From the NCBI RefSeq assembly GCF_004343725.1, contig NZ_PTQW01000014.1, positions 1-64,000 on the forward strand: DNA of 64,000 nucleotides, read 5' to 3'. The notes under the pieces were generated by a model. That model did not search any database, was not told the DNA's origin, and saw nothing but the letters and a program-made list of their open reading frames with translations. Of the stretch, positions 2,087 through 20,020 are shown piece after piece. A program made the translations under genes and the position numbers. This DNA comes from Treponema sp. J25. GTDB taxonomy: Bacteria; Spirochaetota; Spirochaetia; Treponematales; Breznakiellaceae. Within the stretch, counting starts at the first letter, position 1; every line of letters starts with the position of its first letter.

Positions 2087-3073
2087 ATGCCCTTTGAATT
2101 GGATGAAGCTCTCATAGACGCTATTATTTTTTCCATGGAAGATCAGGGAACGGCCTATTTTGTCGATTCAGAAGAGGGGATTGTTCTTTCGGAAGAAGAA
2201 ATTCTGGAAAATGAAGATGAGGTTGACGAAGACCGATATATTCCCATCCCCTATTGGGATTCTAACGAGGGGTTCCGTCTTATGGAACGGTTTGTGGTGG
2301 CCCTCAAGAATCCTCTTGCCAAAGTAGAACTTACCCGCGCCCTTGATCGCGGAAAGGGGGTGTTTCGGGCCTTTAAGGATACCCTCTCCCGTTACCCCGT
2401 AATAGAAAAGCGCTGGTTCCGGTATAAAGAGCAGGCCATGCGACGTACGGTTCTCGAATGGTACAATGGACTTCGAGAGGACTGGGGTCTCGAACGCATC
2501 GGAACAGAACCGGAAGAAACAGAGGATCTTCTGGGAGAGGATATCACGATTCGTCCCTCCCGAGAAGAAGACACACCATCAATTCAACAAATTCACGAGC
2601 AGTGCCTTATGGATTTACAGAGGGTACTTACTGAAAAACCCAGGCGACCCCAGAAAGCAGGACTTTACTTGGTAGAGGGAAGGTCCCAGCATCGAGAGGG
2701 GAATCAGAAACTGGAAGAAATAGCATCCCTTTTTTTCACTTTCCAGGGGTTCAAAACAGGGGATATCCATCTTGTGGCAGAAACGACGAGTAAAGAAATA
2801 GTGGGATATATTCTGGTACACCGGAGTCCCTATGGGTTTCATGTCACTGCTATAGAAGTACTTCCCGAATATCGAGGTCTGGGCATTGGGGAACAACTTT
2901 TAGAGCAGGCCCTTGCCCGCATACCACCGGAAACGACCCAAGCTATTACAATCGATATACCAGCATATTTCGAAGGCTTTTCCCGGGTGATAGCCCGCCA
3001 TGGCTTTACCCCCCTGACAATTCGATATATACGCCACGAAAATAGCTTGACTTCTTCGGAAGACCTTATATGA
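2087..3073 (+). CDS. UPF0158-domain / GNAT acetyltransferase fusion protein
   Basis: Residues 1 to about 145 match the uncharacterised UPF0158 family: an acidic N-terminus, then PIPYWDSNEGFRLMERF and a GKGVFRAFKDTL..YP...WFRY segment. Residues about 150-328 form a GNAT N-acetyltransferase domain, with ITIRPSREEDTPSI at its start and the acetyl-CoA-binding loop VLPEYRGLGIGEQLLEQAL at about 258-276. The acceptor substrate is unknown. The UPF0158 domain starts at the first residue, which supports this ATG although it has no ribosome-binding site; the promoter position suggests a leaderless transcript. It is the first gene of a same-strand run through 7602, with 31 bases to the next gene. Confidence 0.8.
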   Translation: MPFELDEALIDAIIFSMEDQGTAYFVDSEEGIVLSEEEILENEDEVDEDRYIPIPYWDSNEGFRLMERFVVALKNPLAKVELTRALDRGKGVFRAFKDTLSRYPVIEKRWFRYKEQAMRRTVLEWYNGLREDWGLERIGTEPEETEDLLGEDITIRPSREEDTPSIQQIHEQCLMDLQRVLTEKPRRPQKAGLYLVEGRSQHREGNQKLEEIASLFFTFQGFKTGDIHLVAETTSKEIVGYILVHRSPYGFHVTAIEVLPEYRGLGIGEQLLEQALARIPPETTQAITIDIPAYFEGFSRVIARHGFTPLTIRYIRHENSLTSSEDLI

Positions 3074-3104: not shown

Positions 3105-3575
3105 ATGGAGACAAAGGAATCATTGGGGTTTATTGAAATAAAGTTCGGCCCTCGCTGGAAATACATTGCGGTAGTTCGGGCATTTATCCAGAATTTTATC
3201 GCCGTAAGTTACGCCGATACGATGCGGGCCGACAAAATCGCCATGGCAGCCAGCGAACTTTTGGAAAACGCCGTAAAATATGCCCAGGGGGAAGAGACCA
3301 TTGTAAAACTTCAACTTTTACCCGAAAAAGAATCCATCATGGTGTCGGTTTCCAACAGGGCAAGTCCCGAGGCAATAGAAAGTCTTAAAGCAATCTGGGA
3401 GAAGGTCATGGCAGGGGATCCCCTGCAGGCCTACATTGCTCAGATGCAGCTTGCGGCTACCCGGGAAGATTCAAAAAGCCAATTGGGATTGGTACGAATC
3501 CGGTACGAAACAGGGGCCCAGATGAAGCTGGACATCCAGGGAGACCTGGTAACCATCACGCTAGTCCAGAGCTAA
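3105..3575 (+). CDS. slr1658-type regulator with degenerate GHKL/RsbW-like ATPase fold
   Basis: This 156-residue protein carries an N-box-like motif, AASELLENAVKYA (about residues 48-60, with E51 and N55), as in RsbW/SpoIIAB-type histidine-kinase-like ATPases. The usual DxGxG box is not visible: the corresponding region reads SVSNRASPEAIESL, and a late SQLGLVRIRYE segment replaces the canonical glycine-rich lid. This resembles the slr1658 superfamily / SiaB-like (DUF6272) group, in which members pair with a STAS-like partner. By analogy it may phosphorylate or bind the STAS-like protein at 3690, but this is inference. The family name is from memory and was not searched. Confidence 0.65.
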   Translation: METKESLGFIEIKFGPRWKYIAVVRAFIQNFIAVSYADTMRADKIAMAASELLENAVKYAQGEETIVKLQLLPEKESIMVSVSNRASPEAIESLKAIWEKVMAGDPLQAYIAQMQLAATREDSKSQLGLVRIRYETGAQMKLDIQGDLVTITLVQS

Positions 3576-3615
3576 AAAGGGAGTTCCTCTTTCCATATAT
3601 GCAGGAAGGGAACAG

Positions 3616-3672
3616 AAAACGGTACGGTTGTAAAAAGCGACCCACAGAGGGATCGTGAGTACCATACGTTTT
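3616..3672 (+). promoter_or_regulatory. Structured RNA element between the ATPase-like and STAS-like genes
   Basis: AAAACGGTACGGT (3616-3628) pairs with ACCATACGTTTT (3661-3672), with one bulge and one mismatch. Nested inside, CGACCC (3638-3643) pairs with GGGATCG (3649-3655), with a one-base bulge. The fold ends 17 bases before the STAS gene start, close to its GAGGA ribosome-binding site. It has no T-run, so it is not a classic terminator. Confidence 0.45.
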
Positions 3673-3689
3673 GAAACAACGAGGATACT

Positions 3690-4070
3690 ATGAACAAATT
3701 GAACATTGAAACCATCAAACAGGATAAGGTAACTATCGAAGTCCAGGATACAGCGAGTGGAATCAAGGTTATCATTACGGGAGACATAGACATGCAGGAC
3801 CCGGGGGTACTGCTGGATCCTCTTTTTGATACCGTTCATAACGGCGCTATCGCTCAGGGAATGAAAGCCATCGATCTTGATGTGACGGGGCTTACCTTTC
3901 TTAATTCCAGCGGAATCAAAGCAATTGCTAAATGGATTATGAAACTTGCCACGGTGGATGCAGGGAAAAAGTACACTATCAATATTCTGCAAAATAAGAG
4001 TATTTCCTGGCAAGCCACAAGCCTCCAGACCCTTACCTTTTTAGTCCCCGGAAGTGTGAATGTCCTCTGA
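3690..4070 (+). CDS. STAS-like anti-sigma-factor-antagonist-type regulator (slr1659-like)
   Basis: The 126-residue protein has the STAS pattern: a beta strand GIKVIITGDIDMQDP (about 24-38), then KAIDLDVTGLTFLNSSGIKAI (about 59-79). S73 and S74 lie where anti-sigma antagonists are phosphorylated. The Asp before the strand and the small-residue turn are as expected. In partner-switching systems such a protein is phosphorylated by a GHKL kinase and dephosphorylated by a PP2C phosphatase; candidates for both are encoded at 3105 and 4908. It overlaps the next gene by 11 bases, which suggests translational coupling. The STAS assignment is fairly secure; the phosphorylation is inferred. Confidence 0.7.
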   Translation: MNKLNIETIKQDKVTIEVQDTASGIKVIITGDIDMQDPGVLLDPLFDTVHNGAIAQGMKAIDLDVTGLTFLNSSGIKAIAKWIMKLATVDAGKKYTINILQNKSISWQATSLQTLTFLVPGSVNVL

Positions 4071-4911
4071 TAGCCTTGTTCAACAAAAAACAGCGGGAAC
4101 AATAAACAGCTTAGAGGTTCTTCGCTATGCGAGGGACCTCTGTACGCAACTTTTGGCCCAGTATGATGAAGAAGAAAAACGTTCCCGTATCATTACCCAG
4201 TTGCAAGAAGAATTGGGACAACTCGGTATGCTCAGCGAGAAAATCCGGGAAAACGCGCAACAAATCACCGGAATCTCGGACAACATGGCTAGTTCCGCAG
4301 AGGCAGGCTTTAACCTTTCCCAGGATGTCCAGAACAAGGTAAGCACCCTCGCGGAAGATATTCGAACGTCCCTCGAAGACACAAACCGATTGCTGAATCA
4401 ATCAAAAAAGATAAACGAAATTCTCGAAATCATGGGTGATATCTCTTCTACCACCAGCGTGCTTTCTATCAATGCCTCTATTGTAGCGGCTCGATATGGG
4501 AAGCAGGGAAAAGAATTTGACGTGGTAGCCAAGGAAATCCGGAAATTATCTGAAGGAACCGATAAATCCCTTAAAGACATTGCGAGCCTTTTACAGGAAA
4601 TCCAAAGCTCCATCACGTCGGTGAGTTCTAAATTACAACGGGTGGCCACGGAGATTCTCGCCCAAAAGGAGTCTATTCTCTCTGTAGCGGGGTCCTTACA
4701 GGGAGTAACCCTGGCAGTAGAAGTTATCCGTTCGGTTACCAATCTTTCCAAAGAAACCGCCGAAGCAGAAACGGAAAGCTTTAAGAATATTGAACAAGCC
4801 TTGAAAGAACTTACCAGTTGCATTGGACCAGAAATTCCCCGGCTCCAGTTGGAGCATTTACAGCAATCCCTTGAAGAATTGCTGACCCTTCGTACGGAGG
4901 TCTCGGTATGA
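4060..4911 (+). CDS. Soluble MCP-like signalling protein with altered hairpin tip
   Basis: This 283-residue, largely coiled-coil protein has no signal peptide or membrane segment. A methyl-accepting-chemotaxis hairpin tip is recognisable at about residues 128-166 (SSTTSVLSINASIVAARYG, then KEFDVVAKEIRKLSE). The canonical tip reads NAAIEAARAGE.GRGFAVVA; here the first Glu is Val, the second position is Lys and the Arg of GRGF is Lys. These positions help contact CheA and CheW, so ordinary chemoreceptor signalling is doubtful. The gene overlaps the STAS gene by 11 bases and the phosphatase by 4 (ATGA), so it very likely acts with them. It has no recognisable sensor domain; residues 1-60 are of unknown function. 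Confidence 0.75.
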   Translation: MSSDSLVQQKTAGTINSLEVLRYARDLCTQLLAQYDEEEKRSRIITQLQEELGQLGMLSEKIRENAQQITGISDNMASSAEAGFNLSQDVQNKVSTLAEDIRTSLEDTNRLLNQSKKINEILEIMGDISSTTSVLSINASIVAARYGKQGKEFDVVAKEIRKLSEGTDKSLKDIASLLQEIQSSITSVSSKLQRVATEILAQKESILSVAGSLQGVTLAVEVIRSVTNLSKETAEAETESFKNIEQALKELTSCIGPEIPRLQLEHLQQSLEELLTLRTEVSV

Positions 4912-6959
4912 ATCAGGTTTTCTCCCTTTCTTTTTGGTTTATAGCCGCCTTCCTTGTTCCCCTCTGGTACAGTGCCAATAGCCGCAAAGAATATGGCGAT
5001 AGGCCACTCTGGTTGCTAGTATCTCTCCTCATCTTTATTTTTATCGGTCTTTGTGTGAGCGCCGGAATGTGGCTTCCGGAGTTTTTCCCTGGCGGGGATT
5101 TGCTCTGTCGTTTTCTTCCCCCCCTGCTGTATGCCCTTCTTTTTTCCGTAGCCGAGTATTCCATTCATAGCCAGCGGATACAGAAAAACCTTCTTTTTTC
5201 GGAATTTGCCTCCCGTTTGATAGGGGAAGCTTTGTTATTGGCGGGCACCATAGTCGCCCTCGTACTTTCCATAGTATTTTATTCCTCAAGTACAGCAATC
5301 CTGTTTGTGCTGCTCTTTGGGGGCCTCGTGTTGGGGCTTTTTGGGTATAACATAGTACTTTTTAGCTTTGAAGAAGGTATCATCCGTTTCAATAAAATTC
5401 CCTTTATCATTTATATGGTTATCGTTGCCCTCGGTATGATTCTGACCTGGGCAAGCCCACCCTGGGGGGGGAGCTTCTTTTTTCTGTTGCTCAATCTACT
5501 CTTTGGAATTCGTATTTTTCACGAATACTTCTGGTATCGCATGGAACATTTTAACCAGGTGTACAGCCAACAGGAAGAACAGGAAAAAAATCGAACCCTA
5601 CTTATCAATGAAATCCTCATTGCGTCTCCTACGGAAGAACAGATAATCCTTAAAAATGTACTGGAACGATATTATGAGCAGTTTCAGGAAGCCCTGGCAA
5701 ATCCTAATGTTCGCATAAAATCTCTCATGCTCTACACCAAAAGAGGGCAAACCCTACGGGTTGAATCGGATCATTTTATTATAGGGTATTGTACTCCCCT
5801 TATAAATCTGGAAACCCTGAAACGTCTTAACACTGAAGCGGCCCATACCCTTATCAAAGAACAGAGCTTTACGCTTCCCAGAAAGGGACAAGAGGATGAC
5901 CAGGGAAATTCCTTCCCGGAAAACAGTATTATCGAAATGATCCAAAGCCGTGACATGGTAGCGGTAGACCAGCTACCGACCCATCTGGCGGCAATCTTTA
6001 AATTGATTATCTTTTACCCCGTCTTTAATCAGCAGGAACTGGTGGGAATGCTCGTTCTCTTTAAAGAAGGTTCTTCCTATGTGTTCCCTAAAGAACGTTC
6101 TATTCTTACCAACCTGGCAAACGAAGTGTCTATCGCCCTTACCCTTATAAACGGGAAGAGAATTCAGGAAGACAAGAACCGTCTGAGCCAGGAAATGGAT
6201 GTGGCCCGGAATATCCAGATGTCGGTTCTGCCCAAAAACATTACTATAGAGGGGTACGATGTGGCAGCAAGCATGACCACCGCCACGGAGGTTGGTGGCG
6301 ATCTGTACGATTACCTCAAAAATCAAAATCGCCATTTCCTTGCCATTGGGGATGTGGCTGGGCATGGGTTACCGGCCGGCCTTATGGCTCTTACGTTCAT
6401 GTCTGCCCTCCATGGTTGTGTTAAAACCCAGGAGAATTTGGGACAGGCCCTTTCTCCATCCCAGATATATGACATCGTAAATCAGGTTCTGGTAGAAATT
6501 AACCGAAACCGGATCGGCAGTGATAAATTCATGACCGCCAACATTTTGCAAGAAGAACGGGGCACCGTAACCTATGCGGGGTCCCACCTGATTGGCCTCG
6601 TATATCGTTCTAAAGAGAAACAGGTGGAAGAAATTCCCGGCATGACCCAGCGGGCAGCCTTTCTGGGGTTATCAGAGTATGCTACTTCATCTTCGTCTCT
6701 GGGATCTGTTACGCTTGAGCAGGGAGATATTCTACTCCTTTACACAGATGGGCTTATCGAGGCCCGGAATAAACATGGCGAACTTTTTGGTCTAGAACGG
6801 GTAAAACAGACTATTCAAAAAGTAGCAGAGCGATCCGCAGAGGAGATTCGGCAAAGCCTTCTGGAAGAAGTTACCCGCTTTGCCGACCAGGGGGATCTTC
6901 GAAAATACGAAGGTAATTTTGCCGACGATATTAGCCTGGTGGTTCTTAAAAAACAATAA
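4908..6959 (+). CDS. Membrane PP2C (SpoIIE/RsbU-type) serine phosphatase with 7TM and GAF-like regions
   Basis: The N-terminal ~215 residues hold seven hydrophobic segments (for example LLVSLLIFIFIGLCVSAG, LLLAGTIVALVLSIVFY and FFFLLLNLLFGIRIF). Residues about 230-415 look like a GAF-type sensor (…FNQQELVGMLVLFKEG…). A coiled linker (RLSQEMDVARNIQMSVLPK) leads to a SpoIIE-type PP2C domain with VGGDLYDY (about 461), AIGDVAGHGLPAGLMA (about 480), YTDGLIEARN and a terminal DDISLVVLK; these hold the metal-binding aspartates. The likely substrate is the phosphorylated STAS-like protein encoded upstream. It would sense a membrane or periplasmic signal and switch the downstream partner. Start by ATGA overlap with the MCP-like gene. 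Confidence 0.85.
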   Translation: MNQVFSLSFWFIAAFLVPLWYSANSRKEYGDRPLWLLVSLLIFIFIGLCVSAGMWLPEFFPGGDLLCRFLPPLLYALLFSVAEYSIHSQRIQKNLLFSEFASRLIGEALLLAGTIVALVLSIVFYSSSTAILFVLLFGGLVLGLFGYNIVLFSFEEGIIRFNKIPFIIYMVIVALGMILTWASPPWGGSFFFLLLNLLFGIRIFHEYFWYRMEHFNQVYSQQEEQEKNRTLLINEILIASPTEEQIILKNVLERYYEQFQEALANPNVRIKSLMLYTKRGQTLRVESDHFIIGYCTPLINLETLKRLNTEAAHTLIKEQSFTLPRKGQEDDQGNSFPENSIIEMIQSRDMVAVDQLPTHLAAIFKLIIFYPVFNQQELVGMLVLFKEGSSYVFPKERSILTNLANEVSIALTLINGKRIQEDKNRLSQEMDVARNIQMSVLPKNITIEGYDVAASMTTATEVGGDLYDYLKNQNRHFLAIGDVAGHGLPAGLMALTFMSALHGCVKTQENLGQALSPSQIYDIVNQVLVEINRNRIGSDKFMTANILQEERGTVTYAGSHLIGLVYRSKEKQVEEIPGMTQRAAFLGLSEYATSSSSLGSVTLEQGDILLLYTDGLIEARNKHGELFGLERVKQTIQKVAERSAEEIRQSLLEEVTRFADQGDLRKYEGNFADDISLVVLKKQ

Positions 6960-7029
6960 ACTGTGTTGATCACTTATGAAGGAATGAACTTTTGTAAGAA
7001 GAGAAAAAGAAGAAAAGGGGATGACGGCA

Positions 7030-7602
7030 ATGCAATGGGAAGATGAAAAAGAACAGATACAAACCCTGTTCCAGAGCCTTGTCAAGAAAGTACAGTCGGG
7101 GACTGATATCGAAAAAGTCATTCAATATCGAAAAATATTTCGCAAGTCTGTTCCGCTTTTAATGCGCTCCTACGTGGCGGCATATCTGTGTATGGAATAC
7201 CTGAAAAATTCCTCAAAAGTCCACCGGGGGAGCATAAAAGTCCCGATTTCATCAGATAACCAAGAAAAATCCCTTGCCGATCAAGAACGGTGTTCCCTCT
7301 TTATCAGTGTAGGTAAGAATCGACGGGTATATCCTCAGCAACTGGTGACCTTTATTCAGAAAAAAACAGGACTTCCCCGGGAAACCTTCGGACATGTGCG
7401 CATGTTAGATAATTATTCTTTTATAGAGGTCCCCAGAGATTTAGCAGATTCCCTAATTATCACTTTACAGGGGACCCTTTTTAAAGGGAAAGCCCTGGTA
7501 GTAAATTACGCTCGTCACAAGACAGAACAGCCCCTGGAGGGAAGCGATGAAATGTTTTCATCGAGGGAAAAACAAACAATTCATTCCAGAGAGATTATTT
7601 AG
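7030..7602 (+). CDS. Small protein with C-terminal DbpA-type RNA-binding domain, no helicase
   Basis: Residues about 95-165 (FISVGKNRRVYPQQLVTFI, then GLPRETFGHVRMLDNYSFIEVP and GKALVVNYAR) match the RRM-like DbpA RNA-binding domain (PF03880). In DEAD-box helicases DbpA/YxiN this domain binds a 23S rRNA hairpin. Here it stands alone behind a ~90-residue helical N-terminus. An in-frame ATG at 7021 touches the AAAAGGGG ribosome-binding site; the ATG at 7030 has the normal 9-base spacing and is preferred. The gene lies 70 bases after the phosphatase on the same strand, so it may be cotranscribed. Its last 8 bases overlap the convergent gene at 7595. Confidence 0.7.
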   Translation: MQWEDEKEQIQTLFQSLVKKVQSGTDIEKVIQYRKIFRKSVPLLMRSYVAAYLCMEYLKNSSKVHRGSIKVPISSDNQEKSLADQERCSLFISVGKNRRVYPQQLVTFIQKKTGLPRETFGHVRMLDNYSFIEVPRDLADSLIITLQGTLFKGKALVVNYARHKTEQPLEGSDEMFSSREKQTIHSREII

Positions 7603-18067: not shown

Positions 18068-20020
18068 ATGGCAATCCCCTATATAAAACCCCTTACCCCA
18101 GAATTAGAAGACCGGATCCGACGGAACCCGAGCCTCAATATCGATAGTTTCATTGTACCCACCCCGTACGTTCTGGATCAGGGACTTGAAAAAGATCTGG
18201 ACCATTCCTTCGTATGGGAAGAGGAACGGGAAATTCTAGGGTATATCGAAGTCTGGTCTAATCCATTAAAAAAATGTTTTTACATCTACAAACAGGTTAC
18301 CAGTCCCTTTGGCAGGAGCAAAGGCATCGGGTCCGCCTTTCTTGCCCACCTGGCGTCGATACTGCCGGAGGATGCCGAAATAGGCTTGTATGTATGGGAA
18401 CGGCAAACCGAAATTCTTTCGTTCTATCTCAGACGGGGGTTCCATGAAGAAGAACGGATCAACTGGCGGGCCCTTACCTTCATAAAACTCCGCTCCGTGG
18501 CCAGGGATGTAAAGGAAATCGTCCCTAAAGTGGGCTTTCTTTCCGGGACCGCGGAAGAGCTTGGCAAGATTCGCCACGATGCTAAAAAAGCGATCCGCCT
18601 TATTGCGGATATGGCCGGGGCCCTGACCGCAGAAAACTGCTCCCGGATCATTGAAGACATTAACCGGGAAACCACGGCCCTGATCAACACCTTAAACCTT
18701 TTTCGGGACTCGGTGCAGCGCTTTAGAACGGTAAACCTTAAGGAACTCATCGTGGACCGCATCATCCCCATGATCGACCATTCGCCGGTCCCCTGTACGC
18801 TGACGCTCCGCTTTGCCCCCAACGTGGGAGAAGCCCGGGCCCATTACGTCGAAGTGGGTCGAGCCCTGGTAAACCTGGTGTCCAATGCCCTGGATGCCAT
18901 AAAAGCCGCTGGTCGTCCCGGGGAACTTACCATCGGGCTTGAAGAATCGGCGGGCTGGATTATTCTGACCGTGGAAGACAATGGCACGGGCATCGAAGAA
19001 CAGCGTTTACAAAAGGGGCCCGATGGGATGCCCTCCTTTGTAGGTATCAGCACCAAGGGTCCCCTGGGCGAAGGCCAAGGGACCCGACAGATTTACACCA
19101 CCTTTGGGGCCGATAACATCACCGTCCACAGCGAACGGGGCAAGGGCACCCGCTGGAAGATTCGCCTGCCCCGGGCCAGCGGCTCAGAAGAAAACACCTA
19201 TGCCCAACTAGAAACCCGCCTGGCCGAATTCAAGGCCCTGGGGGTAGAGCACCGACCGGGCCCCACCAGCAGCAAGGCGGAAATTTCGGCCCATCTCTGG
19301 CGACTCCGGAAGCTGGAAATTCTTATCTGGGACCTGATTCTGCAGTTTTCCCGAAAGAACAATGTCCGGGACCTGTATCGACTTTTTTTGGCCACCCTTC
19401 ATGGGGCCATAGAACTTGCCCAGTTTAAGGGAAACCTCTCTCAATTTCGTATCGATGAAGAAAACCTCCGGCTCTGGCTTACCGAAGCGGTACATATCCT
19501 GTGTCGGGAAGAGGGGGCCCTTACGTTTCTTGCGGGTCAGACCCTTTACCAGGGGATTCGATTTAAAGCCTATGGCCAGGCGGTAGACCGAACCGTGGTC
19601 TTTACCCTGAATCCCTTTACGGGCGTCTTCGGTGCCACCGACCGAAAACTCGCGGAACACGCCGATTTTGTCCCCTACCTTGGGGAACAACGGGATAGAC
19701 TTTTGCGGGGCGAGTTTTTTGGGGATGTAGAAAATCCAAGCACCCCCATTCAACTCGGGGTATGGGAAATTAACTCTATCGAAGATGGGCGGCGGAAAGC
19801 GGCCCTCGTCCAGCGGGCCTGTCAAACCCTGCGGGACTTTGGGGTGCCGGGGGACAAAAAAATCCTTTTTTACGAGACCACCTGGCGGCGTTGCGGCATC
19901 GATCTTGATACGGGCCGTCCCCGTACTCTGAAAGCCATCGCCGAACTAAAAGAGCATGAACTGGGCGATCTCCTTACCCAGATAGATGATGAACTTACTG
20001 ATTTTGTAAGCACCGACTAA
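18068..20020 (+). CDS. GNAT - histidine-kinase-like ATPase - unknown C-terminal domain fusion
   Basis: Three parts are visible in 650 residues. Residues 1 to about 145 resemble a GNAT acetyltransferase (YKQVTSPFGRSKGIGSAFLAHL is the acetyl-CoA loop). Residues about 160-220 are helical and contain RHDAKK, with H170 where a histidine kinase H-box might be, though the usual HE sequence is absent. Residues about 225-370 are a HATPase_c domain with N-box LVNLVSNALDAI (N273), G1 VEDNGTGIE and G2 GEGQGT. Residues about 385-650 are of unknown family. There is no membrane segment or receiver domain. The promoter was not found; a CTTGGAGGAACG ribosome-binding site precedes the ATG. Confidence 0.7.
   Translation: MAIPYIKPLTPELEDRIRRNPSLNIDSFIVPTPYVLDQGLEKDLDHSFVWEEEREILGYIEVWSNPLKKCFYIYKQVTSPFGRSKGIGSAFLAHLASILPEDAEIGLYVWERQTEILSFYLRRGFHEEERINWRALTFIKLRSVARDVKEIVPKVGFLSGTAEELGKIRHDAKKAIRLIADMAGALTAENCSRIIEDINRETTALINTLNLFRDSVQRFRTVNLKELIVDRIIPMIDHSPVPCTLTLRFAPNVGEARAHYVEVGRALVNLVSNALDAIKAAGRPGELTIGLEESAGWIILTVEDNGTGIEEQRLQKGPDGMPSFVGISTKGPLGEGQGTRQIYTTFGADNITVHSERGKGTRWKIRLPRASGSEENTYAQLETRLAEFKALGVEHRPGPTSSKAEISAHLWRLRKLEILIWDLILQFSRKNNVRDLYRLFLATLHGAIELAQFKGNLSQFRIDEENLRLWLTEAVHILCREEGALTFLAGQTLYQGIRFKAYGQAVDRTVVFTLNPFTGVFGATDRKLAEHADFVPYLGEQRDRLLRGEFFGDVENPSTPIQLGVWEINSIEDGRRKAALVQRACQTLRDFGVPGDKKILFYETTWRRCGIDLDTGRPRTLKAIAELKEHELGDLLTQIDDELTDFVSTD

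Follow-up and report, generated by a model that had tools for sequence, protein, structure and literature searches.

A partner-switch gene set with an MCP-derived coiled-coil protein in Treponema sp. J25 and other Spirochaetia

Gene organization of the module

The window (the whole stretch of 64,000 nucleotides of Treponema sp. J25 that was analyzed) harbors a module of four genes on the plus strand between positions 3105 and 6959:

3105..3575, + strand, switch kinase gene, 156 aa
3690..4070, + strand, STAS gene, 126 aa
4060..4911, + strand, MCP-derived coiled-coil gene, 283 aa
4908..6959, + strand, PP2C/SpoIIE phosphatase gene, 683 aa

The STAS and MCP-like genes overlap by 11 bases, and the MCP-like and phosphatase genes by 4 bases. 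A sequence-only reading of this DNA had reported four ORFs in this order with these overlaps, and the coordinates were reproduced. Its domain assignment (GHKL ATPase, STAS-like, MCP-like, and PP2C) agreed with the Pfam and NCBIfam profile searches; the GAF part is considered separately below. A kinase, a STAS antagonist, and a PP2C phosphatase encoded together at one locus represent a partner-switch gene set.

Sequence and structure analysis of the kinase

The kinase matched HATPase_c_2 with 30.1 bits, above the Pfam cut-off. Its best named family was the Slr1658 superfamily (NF047703, E = 1.3e-19), at 70.4 bits against a curated cut-off of 100 that was not reached; the same superfamily was also matched by all 27 aligned kinase relatives. 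The SiaB family kinase profile NF038262 scored 17.9 bits, short of its curated cut-off of 85. A phmmer search of the kinase sequence alone against the PDB gave no significant match. Modeled with AlphaFold2 (pLDDT 89), the kinase had as its best PDB match SiaB in the SiaB–SiaC complex (6kko; Z 15.9 over 144 residues), followed by UsfX, SpoIIAB, and RsbW (Z about 13–15), the top entries lying within about one Z unit and the lead of SiaB being owed mainly to a longer alignment. The Leptospira response regulator LvrC (PDB 9qih, Z 12.6) was another structural neighbor of the model.

The protein had been described as a degenerate GHKL ATPase. This holds for the DxGxG G1 box, which is absent, the invariant N84 being found where the box would start, but not for the remaining motifs, as the N-box (E51/N55) and a G2-like box (S125..G128) of the Slr1658/SiaB type are kept. 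All of these residues, including N84, were invariant in 33/33 sequences. On sequence grounds, the protein is a Slr1658/SiaB-like GHKL Ser/Thr kinase, distantly related to Slr1658, with predicted catalytic activity.

The STAS protein and the phosphatase

The match of the 126-aa protein to Pfam STAS was sub-threshold. It matched the slr1659 superfamily (NF047705) with E = 7e-14 and 52.1 bits, below the curated cut-off of 100; the same profile was matched by 13 of 13 relatives. The SiaC profile PF09345 gave E = 0.036 and 14.2 bits and did not reach its gathering cut-off of 24.5. By these profile matches, the STAS protein is a distant relative of the Slr1659 regulators. In the profile alignment, S73–S74 of the motif NSSGIK lie opposite the DSSG of SpoIIAA, i.e., at the position of SpoIIAA S58. 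Since the STAS profile places NSSG on the SpoIIAA DSSG, S74 is most likely the phospho-acceptor, with S73 adjacent to it. N72, S73, and S74 were invariant in all 33 relatives; the earlier choice of S73/S74 as candidate phosphorylation sites is thus borne out as far as the residues are concerned.

The phosphatase carries a SpoIIE/PP2C domain (PF07228, 5e-31, 108.6 bits), and its catalytic-type, metal-binding aspartates D465, D482, D614, and D674 are conserved wherever the phosphatases could be aligned. Of the 7TM-GAF-PP2C architecture proposed earlier, the PP2C domain and, by hydropathy, about seven TM helices were recovered, whereas the GAF_2 match was weak (17.9 bits), below the Pfam cut-off of 28.6.

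The MCP-like protein forms a distinct family

The MCP-like protein matched MCPsignal (PF00015) with 1.4e-21 and 77.5 bits against a cut-off of 34.6, and was modeled as a two-helix hairpin with its tip at about residues 135–161. When the alignment of MCP-like proteins was compared with 395 Spirochaetia genomes, 12 matches were obtained at 176–519 bits, the next score, 88 bits, belonging to ordinary MCPs. From this wide score gap, the MCP-like proteins are a family distinct from ordinary chemoreceptors. No sensor domain was found in the MCP-like protein. Hydropathy showed no TM helix in the window copy, and an N-terminal TM hairpin was present in 10 of the 12 aligned members, the exceptions being the window copy and L119, a close relative of it. 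The description of the coil as soluble is thus valid for the window lineage but not for the family. An upstream start that would give the window copy a TM hairpin was considered and rejected, as the frame opens within the STAS gene and L119 is also short.

Conservation of the protein is highest at the tip, which retains N138, mostly R145, and FxVVAKEIR. The position equivalent to Tsr E385 (V142 in the window copy) is Val in 12/12 family members and Thr in 3/3 distant copies, whereas ordinary MCPs have Glu in 25 of 26 cases and Gln in one. In a structural study, the equivalent of E385–R388' was described as an ionic lock between dimers in chemoreceptor trimers of dimers (PMC8144572). The loss of the tip Glu, an ionic-lock residue, therefore argues against normal array assembly by the MCP-like protein, without proving its exclusion from arrays. 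At the position of Tsr R388, all module copies but one still have Arg, so some receptor–receptor contact may be retained. The family also has a second conserved patch (residues 71–90 and 205–225) that is not found in ordinary MCPs; in the hairpin model, its two halves face each other about 66 residues from the tip.

A role at the chemoreceptor arrays was considered, in which the MCP-like protein would still be found in or at the arrays and link the switch to CheA/CheW, so that the switch tunes swimming. The conserved tip would suit such a role, as would the presence of about 18 other MCP-domain proteins in the genome and the precedent of F7 chemosensory clusters, which contain anti-sigma antagonists and serine phosphatases (PMC7184735). 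In the F7 clusters, however, these proteins accompany full che genes and true receptors, and in the ORF lists inspected no che gene was seen beside any module. Together with the replacement of the tip Glu in every close and distant copy, this makes an array role unlikely. The window protein shares the signaling hairpin with methyl-accepting chemotaxis proteins but differs in lacking the tip Glu, in its second patch, and in its linkage to partner-switch instead of che genes. This chemoreceptor relative has probably left chemotaxis, its receptor coil apparently having been recruited to another signaling pathway.

Distribution of the module among Spirochaetia

The order kinase–STAS–MCP-like–phosphatase was found at 11 loci, and further loci were complete in part or rearranged:

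Complete four-gene loci: the window, L119 (Treponema sp. M74), L033/L120, L034/L126, L035, L036, L038/L130, L100/L127, L101/L122, L102/L123, and L107/L134
L113/L155: a twelfth locus, whose contig ends after the MCP-like gene
G386: module divided between two contigs
G417: order phosphatase–kinase–STAS–MCP-like, also split by a contig end

These loci are spread over eight code-defined families of Spirochaetia. Their flanks mostly differ, a FabH-like gene being found upstream in several. Because this order is found again in other families, mostly between different neighbors, the four-gene arrangement exceeds chance, in support of the earlier proposal of a conserved module of the partner-switch type.

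That proposal had taken homologs lying mostly apart as evidence against a module. The MCP-like gene withstands this check: all 12 genomes with the family also had a kinase ortholog, compared with about 20 of the 395 Spirochaetia genomes overall (hypergeometric P = 5e-18, which ignores shared ancestry and is indicative only). The MCP-like gene directly follows the STAS gene wherever one contig holds both, and it stays behind the STAS gene even with the phosphatase gene elsewhere or missing (L110, L149, L157, and L158). A chance neighborhood of the MCP-like gene was excluded by the kinase co-occurrence, the gene order, and the family score gap.

The set GHKL/STAS/PP2C is that of the classical RsbW/RsbV/RsbU switch, and RsbW, UsfX, and SpoIIAB are close structural neighbors of the kinase model. 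The kinase could accordingly sequester a sigma factor encoded elsewhere, the MCP-like protein being incidental. This is the least probable of the alternatives considered: the ORF lists inspected showed no sigma factor gene adjoining the four-gene modules, and the strict linkage of the MCP-like family to the STAS gene means that it is not incidental. The module resembles RsbW/RsbV/RsbU and SpoIIAB/SpoIIAA/SpoIIE in kinase fold, STAS serine register, and PP2C domain, but it differs in having neither an adjacent sigma factor nor the kinase DxGxG box, and in the additional coil protein.

Two distant genomes within the phylum encode three more MCP-like proteins, of the Thr type (L149, L157, and L158), behind kinase–STAS pairs. 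As these score about equally near the module family and ordinary MCPs, a common origin with the module family is no more than possible. Other arrangements of these genes were also observed. Two related genomes carry tandem arrays in which four kinase genes alternate with three STAS genes (L114, 2995–6638, and L115, 6856–10519), and in deep-branching spirochetes (L150, L157, L158, and L160) kinase or kinase–STAS genes adjoin PAS-histidine kinase-receiver hybrids.

The MCP-like gene is accessory to the switch

Seven related loci (L099, L103, L104, L105, L108, L109, and L112) consist of kinase, STAS, and phosphatase genes without the MCP-like gene. In a kinase + STAS tree, the 20 module loci formed one clade (95/88), with the loci lacking the MCP-like gene scattered inside it. 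Presence or absence of the gene required seven changes on this tree, which leaves their direction unfixed; the simplest reading would be an MCP-like gene present early and then lost several times. In five of the loci without the gene, only 3–59 bases separate the STAS and phosphatase genes, so there the gene is gone rather than decayed. Relative-rate tests gave no consistent sign that the kinase, STAS protein, or phosphatase evolves faster once the MCP-like gene has been lost.

From these seven loci it follows that the MCP-like protein is accessory and cannot be the sole output. So, as judged from gene content, the switch would work without it or have another output. The earlier view of the coil as scaffold or output is thus to be restricted, since as the only output it does not agree with seven similar loci that lack the gene.

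Comparison with known switches

The best-scoring named families of the window kinase and STAS protein are Slr1658 and Slr1659, known from cyanobacteria and others, though the window proteins score under the curated cut-offs. Similar PP2C–kinase–STAS sets occur in Acidobacteriota, Myxococcota, and Cyanobacteriota, and no MCP-like gene was seen among the non-spirochete loci examined. Slr1658 has been linked to iron recovery and Pgr5 expression (PMC7555055). The SiaABCD system of Pseudomonas aeruginosa likewise encodes a PP2C, the SiaB kinase, and the STAS-like SiaC in one operon; the window kinase is nearest to SiaB in fold, and SiaC works through binding to a coiled coil (PMC8457831). The window module differs in its STAS protein, which is of the Slr1659 type and not SiaC, in its gene order, and in having an MCP-derived coil in place of a diguanylate cyclase. 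A search of the open literature, with subscription papers outside its scope, returned nothing relevant on an MCP protein in a spirochete switch of the Slr1658/1659 or SpoIIE/STAS type. The core kinase/STAS/PP2C switch is already known; for the added MCP-derived coil, the open literature covered by this search yielded no earlier description.

Proposed mechanism

In the proposed mechanism, the 156-residue kinase would phosphorylate the STAS protein, most likely at S74, and the membrane PP2C, on stimulation of its 7TM/GAF region, would remove this phosphate. Once dephosphorylated, the STAS protein would exchange partners and bind the MCP-derived coil, by analogy with SiaC and the stalk of SiaD. 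In that system, SiaC without phosphate holds the stalk of the diguanylate cyclase SiaD, a parallel coiled coil, with T68 of the SiaC N-T-S motif inserted between the stalk helices; phosphorylation of T68 blocks this insertion (PMC8457831). The MCP-like protein would be a chemoreceptor-derived coiled coil, usually membrane-anchored and no longer in chemotaxis arrays, that serves as an accessory anchor or output and not as the sole target. STAS–coil docking is favored because the STAS protein has N-S-S at a place comparable to that of SiaC and a constant coiled-coil neighbor with an extra conserved patch. We consider the chances about even that the module belongs with the Slr1658/Slr1659- and SiaABC-type switches as a variant of the Spirochaetota, with putative STAS–coil docking. 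Somewhat more tentatively, the hairpin may have been taken from chemotaxis to become a dedicated STAS-binding coil, read or driven by the Ser/Thr switch and not by CheA.

The gene adjacency could equally point to PP2C or the kinase as the partner of the coil. The main rival to STAS–coil docking is an RsbT-like action, in which the MCP-like coil would work upstream in the switch, contacting the phosphatase or its linker and thereby adjusting the dimerization and activity of that enzyme, the STAS protein having its targets elsewhere. RsbT activates RsbU through stabilization of a coiled-coil linker (PMC12143880), the MCP-like gene usually lies directly before the phosphatase gene, overlapping or abutting it, and the core could outlast the loss of a modulator, though not that of an output. 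The arrangements in which the two genes are separated speak mildly against it: in L110 the order differs, yet the MCP-like gene adjoins the STAS gene and not the phosphatase gene, and in L149, L157, and L158 it lies by the STAS gene without an adjacent PP2C. Tuning of the phosphatase is a possible reading, clearly less probable than STAS–coil docking and more probable than an array role.

If the coil is a STAS target, chemoreceptor hairpins would prove capable of leaving a histidine-kinase array and being rewired to a serine-phosphorylation switch. The SiaC–SiaD principle, in which a phospho-switched protein holds on to a coiled coil, would then extend to a second, unrelated effector. The module also provides a named, conserved spirochete signaling gene set in which the output can be probed directly.

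Other genes in the window

Immediately upstream of the module, at 2087–3073 (+), a UPF0158 domain is fused with a GNAT acetyltransferase domain. The product of the ORF at 7021–7602 (+), 193 residues long, has an RNA-binding domain of the DbpA type and no helicase. At 18068–20020 (+), a 650-residue protein combines a GNAT acetyltransferase-like N-terminus with a GHKL ATPase domain, an unusual combination.
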